In this document: positions 1-16,700 of the stretch, one piece after another
Position numbering within the stretch: the stretch's first letter is position 1
How the letters are laid out: each line of letters opens with the position of its first letter
NCBI GenBank assembly: GCA_009780915.1
Contig: WQZD01000005.1
Span: 1-64,000 of the forward strand
Length of the DNA: 64,000 nt
Direction of reading: 5' to 3'
Origin: Propionibacteriaceae bacterium
Lineage (GTDB): Bacteria; Actinomycetota; Actinomycetes; Propionibacteriales; Propionibacteriaceae
Position numbers and translations under genes: made by a program
The notes under the pieces: generated by a model
What the model saw: the letters and a program-made list of their open reading frames with translations, nothing else
Databases searched by the model: none
Told to the model about the DNA's origin: nothing

Positions 1-141
1 AGTCATCGGTGGTTCCTTTCAAGGTCTTAAGCAAACGGACAAAGCACCCCGGTGACTCGCCCCACGTCTACAACCACTGCGACTTTGTCACCAGGAATTA
101 CACCACTCTATGGGACACACCCTCTGGGTCACAGCGTTCTT
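1..141. other. Left flank of CRISPR array, no gene assigned
   Basis: This is the sequence between the window edge and the first CRISPR repeat. I see no convincing coding frame. If the array is transcribed on the minus strand, as the tracrRNA implies, this is the downstream flank of the array, where new spacers may enter in type II-C systems. cas1, cas2 and cas9 are not here and would lie further left. Confidence 0.4.
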
Positions 142-944
142 CAAGTCTACAGGGGGAAATAGGAACTGATTCCCAGCCCGCGTACGCGCGATATGGGGGT
201 CGCGCCAAGTCTACAGGGGGAAATAGGAACTGATTCCCAGCCCTCGTCGCACACAGGGATGATCGTCTTCAAGTCTACAGGGGGAAATAGGAACTGATTC
301 CCAGCTTTTCCGCCTCGGTCGTCGTGGCGTTTCCAAGTCTACAGGGGGAAATAGGAACTGATTCCCAGCTCATGTGCGTGCTCCTGCGTGGCGTTCCCAA
401 GTCTACAGGGGGAAATAGGAACTGATTCCCAGCAATAGCAATCCATGTAGGCGTCGAGGGACAAGTCTACAGGGGGAAATAGGAACTGATTCCCAGCATT
501 CGGGGATTTGAGCGATATATCTACGCAAGTCTACAGGGGGAAATAGGAACTGATTCCCAGCTACCACACAGCCAACCGCCACACTTGCCCAAGTCTACAG
601 GGGGAAATAGGAACTGATTCCCAGCTGATGGCCGCGAACCCGAGTGTCGCCGCCAAGTCTACAGGGGGAAATAGGAACTGATTCCCAGCCACATCTCATG
701 TGATCGTGATCGCGACGCAAGTCTACAGGGGGAAATAGGAACTGATTCCCAGCTCATGGTGATGGTCCCCTCCGCCTCGGACAAGTCTACAGGGGGAAAT
801 AGGAACTGATTCCCAGCGCACCCTGGTACGTCGTGCCAGACGCCGCAAGTCTACAGGGGGAAATAGGAACTGATTCCCAGCCATGGATGTTTACTGAAGT
901 CCGTAGACGCAAGTCTATAGGGGACATAGGAACTGATTATCGGA
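142..944 (-). CRISPR. Type II-C-like CRISPR array, 12 intact repeats plus one degenerate repeat
   Basis: Twelve identical 36-bp repeats start at 142, 206, 270, 334, 398, 462, 526, 590, 654, 718, 782 and 846, giving an exact 64-bp period and 28-bp spacers. On the plus strand each begins CAAGTCTACAGGGGG and ends GAACTGATTCCCAGC. A thirteenth copy at 910 is decayed: it has lost one G of the G-run, carries substitutions and has a different end. Read on the minus strand the repeat begins GCTGGGAATCAGTTC, resembling actinobacterial Cas9 repeats as I recall them. The nearby tracrRNA anti-repeat pairs with exactly that 5' end, which fixes crRNA transcription as minus strand, with the decayed repeat at the upstream end. 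No cas genes are in the window. Twelve unique spacers are preserved. Confidence 0.95.
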
Positions 945-1051
945 GGCAGCATTTCGCTTCGCCTTACCCAGCGAGCTACCCCTCTTTGCAACCACTCCTC
1001 TAGGTCGGGGAAGGAGAGACGGAGACTAATTGGTTGATATCAATGGGCATG

Positions 1052-1096
1052 AAAAACCGGGCGGTGGTTCCACGCATTTCCTCGTGGCCGCCCGGT
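1052..1096 (-). terminator. Rho-independent terminator of the tracrRNA
   Basis: An outer 8-bp stem (CCGGGCGG/CCGCCCGG, 1088-1095 with 1057-1064) encloses a second stem, CCACG/CGTGG, and is followed on the minus strand by five T residues (1056-1052). Confidence 0.85.
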
Positions 1097-1145
1097 GGAG
1101 CATTCAACCCGATAAGCAAGATCGAGCTTACTGAGAATCAGTTCG
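1052..1145 (-). ncRNA. tracrRNA of the type II CRISPR system
   Basis: Three elements follow one another on the minus strand. First is an anti-repeat at 1144-1130, GAACTGATTCTCAGT, which pairs with the first 15 nt of the crRNA repeat with only two G-U wobbles. Next is a nexus-like hairpin (TAAGC at 1130-1126 pairing with GCTTA at 1117-1113). Last is a strong Rho-independent terminator ending in a T-run at 1056-1052. This is the canonical tracrRNA order. An upstream AATAG (1155-1151) could extend pairing past a six-base bulge, but it also overlaps the predicted -10 box, so the 5' end is uncertain. The RNA would guide processing of the crRNA and be held by Cas9, which is not in the window. Confidence 0.88.
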
Positions 1146-1149
1146 CTTA

Positions 1150-1179
1150 ACTATTGCATGGAGGGGGAGCCAGCGTCAA
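1150..1179 (-). promoter_or_regulatory. Predicted tracrRNA promoter
   Basis: On the minus strand a TTGACG -35 box (1179-1174) is followed after 18 bp by AATAGT (1155-1150), preceded by TG as in extended -10 elements. A start about seven bases downstream would fall at about 1143-1145, exactly at the beginning of the anti-repeat. Confidence 0.55.
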
Positions 1180-2884: not shown

Positions 2885-2985
2885 CCACACAATCGCTTCG
2901 TGGGGGAAGCCGGTCGAAACCCGGCACTGACCCGCAACGGTGGATCGAGTCACTCGATGAGTCCGACAACCCACATCGCCGAGTA
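2885..2985 (+). promoter_or_regulatory. Cobalamin (B12) riboswitch
   Basis: The core contains GGGGGAAGCCGGTCGAAACC, then GGCACTGACCCGCAACGGTG, and then GAGTCCGACAACCCAC (2960-2975). This matches the conserved B12-aptamer order (GGGAA, GGT..GAAACCC, ACTGACCCGCAACGGT, B12 box AGYC-GA-ACC). A GC-rich hairpin at about 3003-3028 (GGGG/CCCC plus TCAC/GTGA) follows and may be part of the expression platform. The riboswitch precedes the two surface proteins at 3104-4896, so these genes should be repressed when cobalamin is plentiful. Confidence 0.85.
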
Positions 2986-3103: not shown

Positions 3104-4327
3104 ATGCGTCATCTGTCGCGCATCCTCATCTGCGCACTCATCACCGTCATGGCCGCTGCTGCGGCCCCGGCCCACGCGGCCCCCCAAGCGAACGGCTCCG
3201 ACTCCGAACTGGTCGCGGGCTGGCTCGCCCGTACCCTGGCCTCGTCGAACGGCATCGCCGCGTCGGCGACCGGCGACCCCAACTATGCCAGCACGGCCTA
3301 TGCCGTGGTGGGACTGCGGGCCGCCGGTGTGGCGTCCGGACAGATCACCGCGTCCGCCACGGCGCTGGCCGCCACGAAGGACGACTTCATCGGCGATCCG
3401 AGCGTCACCGGGTCGAAGACGACGGCCATCGCGTTGATGATCCTCGCCATGACCGCGGCCGACCTGGACCCGTCCCAGTACGCCGGCGCCGCGGGGCCGC
3501 GCGACCTGTACGACGAACTGGCCACGACCATCCACACCGACGGCGCCATCGGCGACTTCCCCACCGCGTACTCCCAGTCCTTCGCCATCCTGGCCTTGCT
3601 GACCGCCCCCGGCAGCGCCCCCCAGGACACGGTCCAGTGGATGCTGGCCCAGCCCTGCGCCGACGCGACCGATCCCTCGTACGGGGGGTACGGATTCTCC
3701 GGTCCCGGCAGTTGTACGGACGCGGACCCCGACTCGACGGCGTTGGCGATCATCGCCGCCGTCGCCGCGGGCGTCGAGCCGAGCCAGCTGGCGCCATCGG
3801 GACAGTACCTCCTGTCCGTGCAGGACGCGTCCGGCGGGTTCGTCTCCCCCTTCTCGGGCGCCAACGCCAACACCACCGGGCTGTCCGTCGCCGCCCTCAA
3901 CCTGCTCAGCACATCCCCCTCGGACCACCTCGCCCAGGCGAAGGCGTACCTCGACTCCCTGATGTACGGATGCGACCTGGCGGGCGATGCCAGCACCTCG
4001 CCCGTGGTGGGCGCCATGGCCTACGACACGGCGACCCGCTCGTCCAACCAGATCTCCCCGCTGCCCGCCGACGTCCAGGCCGACCTCTTCCAGGCCAGCG
4101 CCCAGGGGTTGTTCGGCCTCGTGACGGCCGTGACCGTCCCCACCGCGTACCAGGCAGCGAGCACTGACGTCCCCGACGCCACCTCGTGCCCCTCCGCGAA
4201 GGCGACCACGACCCCGGACACCACCAGTTCCTCGGGATCGGGATGGTGGTGGGCCGGCGGCGGCGTCGTCCTCGTCCTCCTGGTCGTCCTGGCCTGGCGC
4301 TTCCTGGCGTCCCCCCGCAAACCGTGA
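3104..4327 (+). CDS. Secreted membrane-anchored alpha-barrel protein, transcobalamin N-domain-like
   Basis: A 407-residue protein with a signal peptide (about residues 1-26, ending AHA-A), a long alanine-rich alpha-helical body, a Ser/Thr-rich spacer and a C-terminal membrane helix (about 378-400) followed by R-K-P. The body repeats the pattern STAYAVVGLRAAG, DSTALAIIAAVAAG and TTGLSVAALNLL. This is typical of the alpha6/alpha6-barrel prenyltransferase/terpenoid-cyclase fold that also forms the N-terminal domain of animal transcobalamin and intrinsic factor. It lies behind a B12 riboswitch and is translationally coupled to a DUF4430-like lipoprotein matching the other transcobalamin domain. 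I infer a surface cobalamin-capturing role; the residues alone do not prove cobalamin binding. Confidence 0.75.
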   Translation: MRHLSRILICALITVMAAAAAPAHAAPQANGSDSELVAGWLARTLASSNGIAASATGDPNYASTAYAVVGLRAAGVASGQITASATALAATKDDFIGDPSVTGSKTTAIALMILAMTAADLDPSQYAGAAGPRDLYDELATTIHTDGAIGDFPTAYSQSFAILALLTAPGSAPQDTVQWMLAQPCADATDPSYGGYGFSGPGSCTDADPDSTALAIIAAVAAGVEPSQLAPSGQYLLSVQDASGGFVSPFSGANANTTGLSVAALNLLSTSPSDHLAQAKAYLDSLMYGCDLAGDASTSPVVGAMAYDTATRSSNQISPLPADVQADLFQASAQGLFGLVTAVTVPTAYQAASTDVPDATSCPSAKATTTPDTTSSSGSGWWWAGGGVVLVLLVVLAWRFLASPRKP

Positions 4328-13789: not shown

Positions 13790-16700
13790 ATGATTACAGA
13801 GAGTCTATTGACGCTAGCCGGCGTGCCACTCGGTTTGGTGACGAATCTGACCTCGGATCGAATCAACTCCTTCCTTGAGACACATGATTTCCTGGCCGAG
13901 GGCCTGGATGACATTTTCGTGGAGGCATTTCTCCGTGCGATAAAGCGCCACAAGAAGTCGCACGACAGTACTGCCCAATCCACGTTGGATAGTCTGGCTA
14001 AAAAAATCAAAAGGAACAAGAGCAGGTTCTTGAAGGTATTTTCGGGCCCCGAGACCATCCGCAGCCTCGGCAACGAGTCATATGTGACGGAGCGAGCTGA
14101 AATGCTCGCCCAGGAATACACAGTTGGCGACTGCGACCTCACGACCGTCCTGATCAAAGACTGCCTTCACGATTATCTGCACTGCTTCTTTGCGCACGTG
14201 TCCGAGCGGCAAGCGATGAGCATCATGATCACAGAGCTGTTCAAATGCAACGACTCTCTTGACGACGCTGCTGCCGTCTTGGCGCAGTTGAAGGCCACGA
14301 TTTCGGTGGACGACTTCTCGACCGTCCGAGACTCGGTCCTGGGTCATGTCACTCGCAATCACGAGGAGTACAAGCGAGCACTCGCCGACTACGATGACTA
14401 CGTCCAGGCACACTTCCGTGACCTGCCGCTCAGGGGCTATGCTCCGCGTATCGGTGGCGCCCTCGTAGCGATGAAGCTGGAAGACATTTATGTGCCTCTG
14501 CGACTCGATAAGGAGAAGGTGGAGCCGGGCTTCTCAATTAGGTATTCCCTTGAGGGGCCGGTGATGGATGAGGCCTTGGAGGTAGACACCTTGTTGAGCT
14601 ACAAGCGCACAGTCCTGTTGGGCAAGCCGGGGTCGGGCAAGTCCACCACTCTCAAGCACATGGCCGTCACAGCATCACAGCGACACGCGAACCCGGGGAC
14701 AAGCGGGCCGGTGCCAATTCTGTTCCGGGTCGCGGAATACGCAGAGCAGTACAAAGAAACACATGTGCCCCTCCATGAGTATCTGTGTGCTCAAGCGTTC
14801 GAATCGAAATTCCAGTGGCTCATTGACGTCACCCTGAGGTACTCGGACGCGCTGTTGTTGGTAGATGGTCTCGACGAAGTGACCGACAAGGCCTTGCGGC
14901 TTCAGGTGGTCGCCAAAATCGAGGACTTCCTCGACGCATACAGCAACTGCCAGTGCATTGTTTCATCTCGAATCATCGGCTATGACGAGGTTCGGCTCGG
15001 CCCGGGCTTCGCTCACTTTCAGTTGGATGACTTTTCGGCGTCACAAATCCGTATGTTCACCGAATGCTGGACATCCGCCATACATGAGGATTGGACCCAA
15101 GCTGAGATCGACCGCGAAGCCGCAGCCATGAACGCCGCGATATGCGCCCATGACTCGGTCTTCCGACTGGCAACGAACCCATTGTTGATGACCATCATCG
15201 CCATGATCTACTTCAGGGATATGAGGCTGCCCAACCGACGAGTAGCGCTGTACGAGTACAGCACCGAAACTTTCCTGGAGAACTGGGTACTCTTGCGGGT
15301 TGGCGATGAGTCCAAGCTCAAGTCGCGGGAGGACATCATTGAGATTCTGTCTCCGATCGCCTTCTACATGCACCGAGACAGGGCCGACAGCCAGATTCCG
15401 GAGAGCGAACTGCGGATCAAGTTTCAGGAACAATACCTGCGCATCCACACAAGAGCGAATGAAGACATCGCACGGCGGGAGACCAGCGAGTTCATCAAGT
15501 TCCTGAGGGAACAGGCCGGCTTTTTTTACGAGGTCGTTTCGCCGCCAGAAAGCGAGAACCTCTTCGGGTTCATGCACGGCACATTTGAAGAATACTTCGC
15601 TGGAATGTACGTCGCCAATGACTTCAACAACGGCGGGAATCTATGGCACACAGCGATTTACAAATCGCGATGGACTGAGGTGCTCCGTCTCGCGGCGGCT
15701 CACCTGAGTGTTCACATGGGCCGCGAGAAGACGACGGAGTTCATCCGAGCCATTATGGGCGTGCGGGACGACTTCCCCGAACTCGGTCGGCGCGAGATCC
15801 TGCTGTGCCGCATCTTCTCCGACGACATCACGGTCACCGACGACTGTCGACAGGACTTCATCCAGACGGTTGTCGACTTCTTCTCCCAAGACGTTTCTGG
15901 GCCTCTGCGGGACGGTCGAACCGTGAAGGAAGGCGTCGGCTTCGAGTCGCTCTTTCGGAGCAACGTTGGCAACGACTTCTGGCTAGCGTGCTTCGATAGG
16001 GCCCGAGCCCTTGACGCCAATAACGCGCTCGCAGGGCTGCTTTTGGACGTCATCGTCGACAGTGGCGCACCCCTAGACGAGAGCCGAATCAAGCTCGTAC
16101 GCCAGTACCTTGACGATATGCCGATGCCAGATCTGGCGCGGATCGTGGCTCGTCAGGGGTCGGTCCGCCTTCATGAAAACAATATGTCGAATCTATTGTA
16201 CGCCAGCTTCTGCGATCGGTTGCCCGAAGCGACGACAACCGAGTTTGAAGTCATTCTTCCAATTATGCGGGGCATCATCTTCCCCAAGACCCCTGCGCTC
16301 AAGTGGGTAATGATTTTTTCCCGTGGCCTGATGTCATCAATGGCGAACACCGCCAATTACAATCGCGTTAAAGCGCTCGTTCTTGGAGGTATTCTTGTCT
16401 ACTCATATACCCCCGAGGTTGAGAATGTGTTGCCTCACGGGTTTTTGACCAAGGATGACAACGCTTGGCTGCGTAGGGTTGATTATCATGAGGAGAGTGA
16501 TTTTCGCTACTCAGCTAGATACATTACATGTAGTGCGGTTCCTGGAAAGGACAACTGCCTCTGGGTAATACATGTCTCGCTAGACCACTTTGACCACCTC
16601 ATAGGTGTCACGGTATTTAATGCTACAACACGCGAAGAAGTGGTGATACCGCTAGATCCGCATCCATCCACATCGAACATCCCCGAGTTGGGGGGCCTTC

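Follow-up and report, generated by a model that had tools for sequence, protein, structure and literature searches.

A type II-C tracrRNA gene at the old end of a CRISPR array in a Propionibacteriaceae genome

Does a short minus-strand segment beside a CRISPR array encode the tracrRNA of a type II system, and what does its position mean for the locus around it? We analysed a stretch of 64,000 nucleotides (the window) from the start of contig C5, in a genome of 2.78 Mb and 45 contigs. The genome is related to uncultured Propionibacteriaceae.

Anatomy and conservation of the tracrRNA gene

An earlier note, made from the DNA letters, had proposed a complete tracrRNA gene here, and its main elements were recovered. 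The anti-repeat (1130-1144, minus strand) is complementary, at 15 of 15 nt and with two G-U pairs, to nt 1-15 at the 5′ end of the crRNA repeat. It is followed on the same strand by the nexus hairpin (1107-1127), whose stem is backed by covariation, a GAATGCTCC motif conserved 3′ of the nexus in 46 sequences (1097-1105), and a terminator (1052-1096) made of a bulged, GC-rich hairpin (1056-1096) and a T-run. Nexus and terminator fold as the note had stated (−36.1 kcal/mol, z −2.87). The bulged terminator was absent from the output of a simple terminator scan. Rfam gave nothing at gathering score across the whole window and no tracrRNA match. Elsewhere in the window, we observed a cobalamin riboswitch-like element (2903-2972, plus strand; RF00174, 26.1 bits, below the gathering score of 31.5), and the open reading frames downstream of it, at 3104 and 4186, had no Pfam match.

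The predicted promoter, TTGACG-18-AATAGT, was found upstream of the anti-repeat at 1179-1150. Its −35 element TTGACG (1174-1179, minus strand) was identified by promoter scan and comparison; its −10 element AATAGT (1150-1155, minus strand) is preceded by TG and keeps its position in relatives. The note had also mentioned a possible extension of the anti-repeat, overlapped by this promoter. We rejected that extension, as own duplexes were no better than swapped ones (mean −7.34 vs −7.36 kcal/mol, 47 loci). Between 939 and 5000, with G-U allowed, the other runs of at least 11 nt complementary to the minus-strand repeat measured 14 and 11 nt and lay on the same strand as the anti-repeat. The plus strand of this interval held no run of at least 11 nt complementary to the repeat, and the plus-strand repeat found no such run there.

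Taken alone, the complementarity and the promoter match are near chance level. When a 10-kb stretch was dinucleotide-shuffled 200 times, 24 of the shuffles contained a run of at least 15 nt to some part of the repeat; for the promoter, the scan returned one site where 0.8 were expected. Complementarity by itself was set aside as proof of a tracrRNA. Judged from sequence, it is the comparison across loci that raises the call above chance.

A single-sequence Cas9 query of genome contigs returned no relatives, and an alignment query returned 98. The locus set comprised 80 cas9 loci from genome contigs, the top-ranking 80 among 98 that were confirmed, together with additional loci of the same family. 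Motif-based tracrRNA picks were initially made in 56 of 64 loci. Five picks between cas2 and the array were wrong, being inverted repeat copies, and were dropped; without these and L124, 50 listed picks remained. Alignment A2 held 41 of the 50 plus the window, L064, L051, L054 and L055, added by hand; alignment A3 held 36 sequences. Covariance model R1 used 46 sequences, window included. Model R2 used 36 other actinobacterial tracrRNAs and excluded the window, its closest relative L064 and L122.

R2, built without the window, scored it at 55.8 bits (E = 4.7e-11, 110,874 bases), and the second-best match inside the window reached only E = 1.4. R1 gave exactly one match in the whole genome, the window tracrRNA. 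Standard pairs filled 87.3% of 315 nexus-stem cells compared to 56.5% in shuffles (46 sequences, 45 distinct, window included), and two-sided changes numbered 102 compared to 32.8 (0 of 500 shuffles as high). Stems slid out of register were 33-47% paired. The nexus-stem differences between the window and L064 all preserve pairs. Across 48 loci, anti-repeats paired on average 14.5 of 15 nt with their own repeat and 12.0 with the different repeats of other loci, a test that also left out L124, L091, L082, L077, L103, L104 and L139 with their shifted or inserted anti-repeats. Two-sided exchanges between anti-repeat and repeat occurred at positions 2, 8, 10 and 13.

Promoter spacing is likewise conserved. 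Of 51 loci, 45 have a TANNNT box that begins at −15 to −10 relative to the anti-repeat (2/51 and 1/51 in control intervals of equal width); the window's own AATAGT starts at −11 yet does not fit TANNNT. TTGA at −38 to −32 occurred in 13 of 51 loci (controls, 4/51 and 3/51). The sequence, predicted structure with covariation, single copy and location of the gene are established. An anti-repeat against the 5′ part of the repeat, a nexus hairpin and a 3′ terminator, by which a type II-C tracrRNA is recognised, are all present, and the R2 score bears out the claim of a tracrRNA gene. We regard it as confirmed that minus-strand 1052-1144 encodes an ordinary type II-C tracrRNA. In the proposed mechanism, transcription from the sigma-70-like promoter would begin at the anti-repeat and yield an RNA of about 93 nt, of which 15 nt would pair with the 5′ half of every repeat RNA. 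Trimming of the duplex would presumably fall to RNase III, and the tracrRNA would be bound by the Cas9 that another contig encodes.

Array polarity and the position of the tracrRNA gene

The array (142-881, minus strand) holds 12 perfect 36-nt repeats and 28-nt spacers, with its newest, cas2-side end at 142. The anti-repeat is complementary to the 5′ portion of the repeat as read on the minus strand, which makes the crRNAs minus-strand products running toward window base 1 and agrees with the polarity first proposed. A decayed extra repeat, placed upstream in the earlier note, does sit at the 5′ (oldest) end of the array (910-944, minus strand). It is altered in its tracrRNA-pairing half, with the changes in the first nucleotides, and its duplex with the tracrRNA is weaker than that of the consensus repeat (−12.8 vs −23.7 kcal/mol). 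In the predicted fold, the stretch that would serve as guide in the extraneous crRNA is covered by a hairpin (943-982, minus strand; −19.4 kcal/mol, z −2.28, 2 of 200 shuffles equally good).

According to the available part of PMC12080349, II-C spacers are reportedly added at the last repeat (acquisition polarity is also treated in the available part of PMC6008519), every repeat is reported to have its own promoter, and 60% of II-C systems reportedly show mutations in the extra repeat that comes first. If repeats carry promoters as that part describes, a start site upstream of the decayed repeat is not required for transcription of the array. A TANRCT box, identified by motif match alone, lies near the repeat 3′ end in 47 of 51 relatives, as expected at sequence level for repeat-borne promoters. 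The same part of PMC12080349 proposes three ways of silencing the extraneous crRNA, which the weak pairing of the decayed repeat, the upstream tracrRNA terminator and the guide hairpin match. The terminator precedes the decayed first repeat by about 107 nt and may also protect the array from read-through. With the array as query, no phage record matched and no protospacer was found; 22-nt parts of 5 of the 12 spacers had no match in viral contigs.

R1 matched 68 of 80 surveyed loci at E up to 0.01 and left 12 without a match at that level; many of the 80 were in its training set. The tracrRNA gene lay upstream of cas9 on the same strand in 63 of the 68 and upstream on the opposite strand in 4; in one (L105) it lay beyond the array. 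The window tracrRNA, on the crRNA strand, is found at the far (old) end of the array and not beside cas9. These data suggest that the gene probably moved within this lineage, though not uniquely, from the usual cas9-side site to the old end of the array. Our literature search, by titles and abstracts, recognised no account of a tracrRNA beyond the array.

Three systems are instructive for comparison. TD116_bin66, an uncultured member of the Propionibacteriaceae (L064/L032), shares the anti-repeat, nexus shape, GAATGCTCC and terminator hairpin sequence with the window. Unlike the window, it has its tracrRNA upstream of cas9, and no array was found on its contig piece. This closest relative has a Cas9 59% identical to that of the window genome. 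Its cas9 carries one in-frame TAG (L032 4138-4151; G011 C102), so L032 Cas9 may be broken or misassembled. The II-C locus of Gardnerella swidsinskii GS 9838-1 (L105) resembles the window: its tracrRNA is encoded on the crRNA strand past the array, and a hairpin separates the two. It differs in its repeat and in its intact cas2-side array hairpin. Bifidobacterium bombi (L118) likewise has a predicted II-C tracrRNA, but upstream of cas9 and on the plus strand; the available part of PMC4521832, the source for this locus, took its crRNA boundaries from RNA-seq. In L122/L035, also Propionibacteriaceae, the array is on the cas9 strand, unlike in most relatives.

The cas genes and the probably interrupted acquisition side

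Window base 1 is the contig end, and nothing is assembled to its left. The genome's one Cas9 (RuvC_III) match is on contig C25. This protein has Pfam Cas9 domains, scores 160 bits with TIGR01865 (cut-off 100) and aligns with Cas9s from other actinobacterial cas9-cas1 loci. A type II cas1 follows downstream (TIGR03639, 215 bits, above cut-off), and both genes are open frames. We observed 3′ of cas1 a frame that resembles, by eye, the start of relatives' cas2 and is cut after about 16 codons. The cut stub is established as an observation. Its 23 residues had no Pfam or NCBIfam match, and no Cas2 family match was found anywhere in the assembly (E up to 10). The sequence that cuts the frame recurs at four other places with 98-100% identity, all of them contig ends.

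On the window side, a repeated, IS-like element end occupies 1-122, placing the contig break 20 bp from the newest repeat. Six further copies occur in the genome, one of them 100% and five 76% identical, and each lies at a contig end. Two distinct repeated elements mark many contig ends, one being window 1-122 and the other the C25 end (L002, about 14909-15031). In relatives the array follows cas2, and the window contig breaks at that point. On this gene order, C25 and C5 would once have been neighbours, and IS-like elements would have broken the locus between cas2 and the array. As one IS-like contig end falls inside cas2 and another 20 bp from the newest repeat, adaptation was probably lost. 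The elements would have cut cas2 and the acquisition end, and the 12 spacers are probably a frozen memory. The remainder of Cas2 could sit in an unassembled gap.

We hold with high confidence that the segment is the single tracrRNA gene of a II-C CRISPR-Cas9 system; in this reading the gene probably moved to the old end of its array, and IS-like elements would have cut the acquisition side. That the anti-repeat arose by chance, or is an old inverted repeat fragment joined to the terminator of another small RNA, would accord with the 15-nt runs in shuffled DNA. We give this next to no credence: the fit of the entire 48-nt core to a model built without the window is strong counter-evidence, and the core stands at the conserved promoter distance.

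A decayed, unexpressed relic in a dying locus, with cas2 broken, the array cut and the gene displaced, is the better of these alternatives and still improbable in our judgement. The IS-like ends beside the array and in cas2, the lack of a Cas2 match in the genome and the spacers without known targets all speak for it. Decay is hard to square, however, with nexus-stem differences from L064 that all keep pairs, with 12 identical repeats and with cas9 and cas1 frames that are still open, and interference survives loss of adaptation.

A hairpin at the cas2-side array end in relatives

In related arrays, part of the array's repeat sequence recurs in inverted orientation in the cas2-side flank. At least 8 contiguous Watson-Crick pairs between 3′ flank and own repeat occurred in 31 of 60 loci; the proportion was 6.9% when flanks and repeats were swapped between loci, and the 5′ flank had such a run in 4 of 54. 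At least L083 is misoriented in this count, its 16-bp run appearing on the 5′ side, an error that, if anything, reduces the contrast. Against mononucleotide shuffles of the flank, the last repeat and flank folded with z below −2 in 53 of 60 cases, compared to 10 of 54 for 5′ ends; both sets of counts refer to loci, not independent events. Seven hand-chosen junctions folded alone gave z −5.3 to −7.0. Such junction hairpins lie, among others, at L090:14514-14584, L105:14804-14874, L117:14721-14791, L067:14589-14652 and L120:14663-14737.

The 3′ half of the newest repeat would form the 5′ arm and the inverted partial copy in the flank the 3′ arm, leaving the tracrRNA-pairing half (nt 1-15) free. 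Lying between the array and the cas operon, which converge, the hairpin could terminate transcription of both, or it could be a DNA anchor guiding Cas1-Cas2 to the newest repeat. In the window locus, the IS-like element 20 bp from the newest repeat probably removed it. We see the arguments as evenly balanced on whether actinobacterial II-C arrays generally end, on the cas2 side, in a hairpin with one of these roles that the element probably cut off here. Our literature search recognised no description of such an array-end hairpin; the available part of PMC13187072 does not mention it, and that of PMC12080349 concerns the upstream side of arrays.

For this genome, array polarity and guide-RNA anatomy are settled. 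The census indicates that tracrRNA genes can relocate within II-C loci and still retain their core and the distance to the promoter. Should the array-end hairpin prove functional, it would be relevant to how transcription of II-C arrays stops or to how the newest repeat is marked for spacer insertion.
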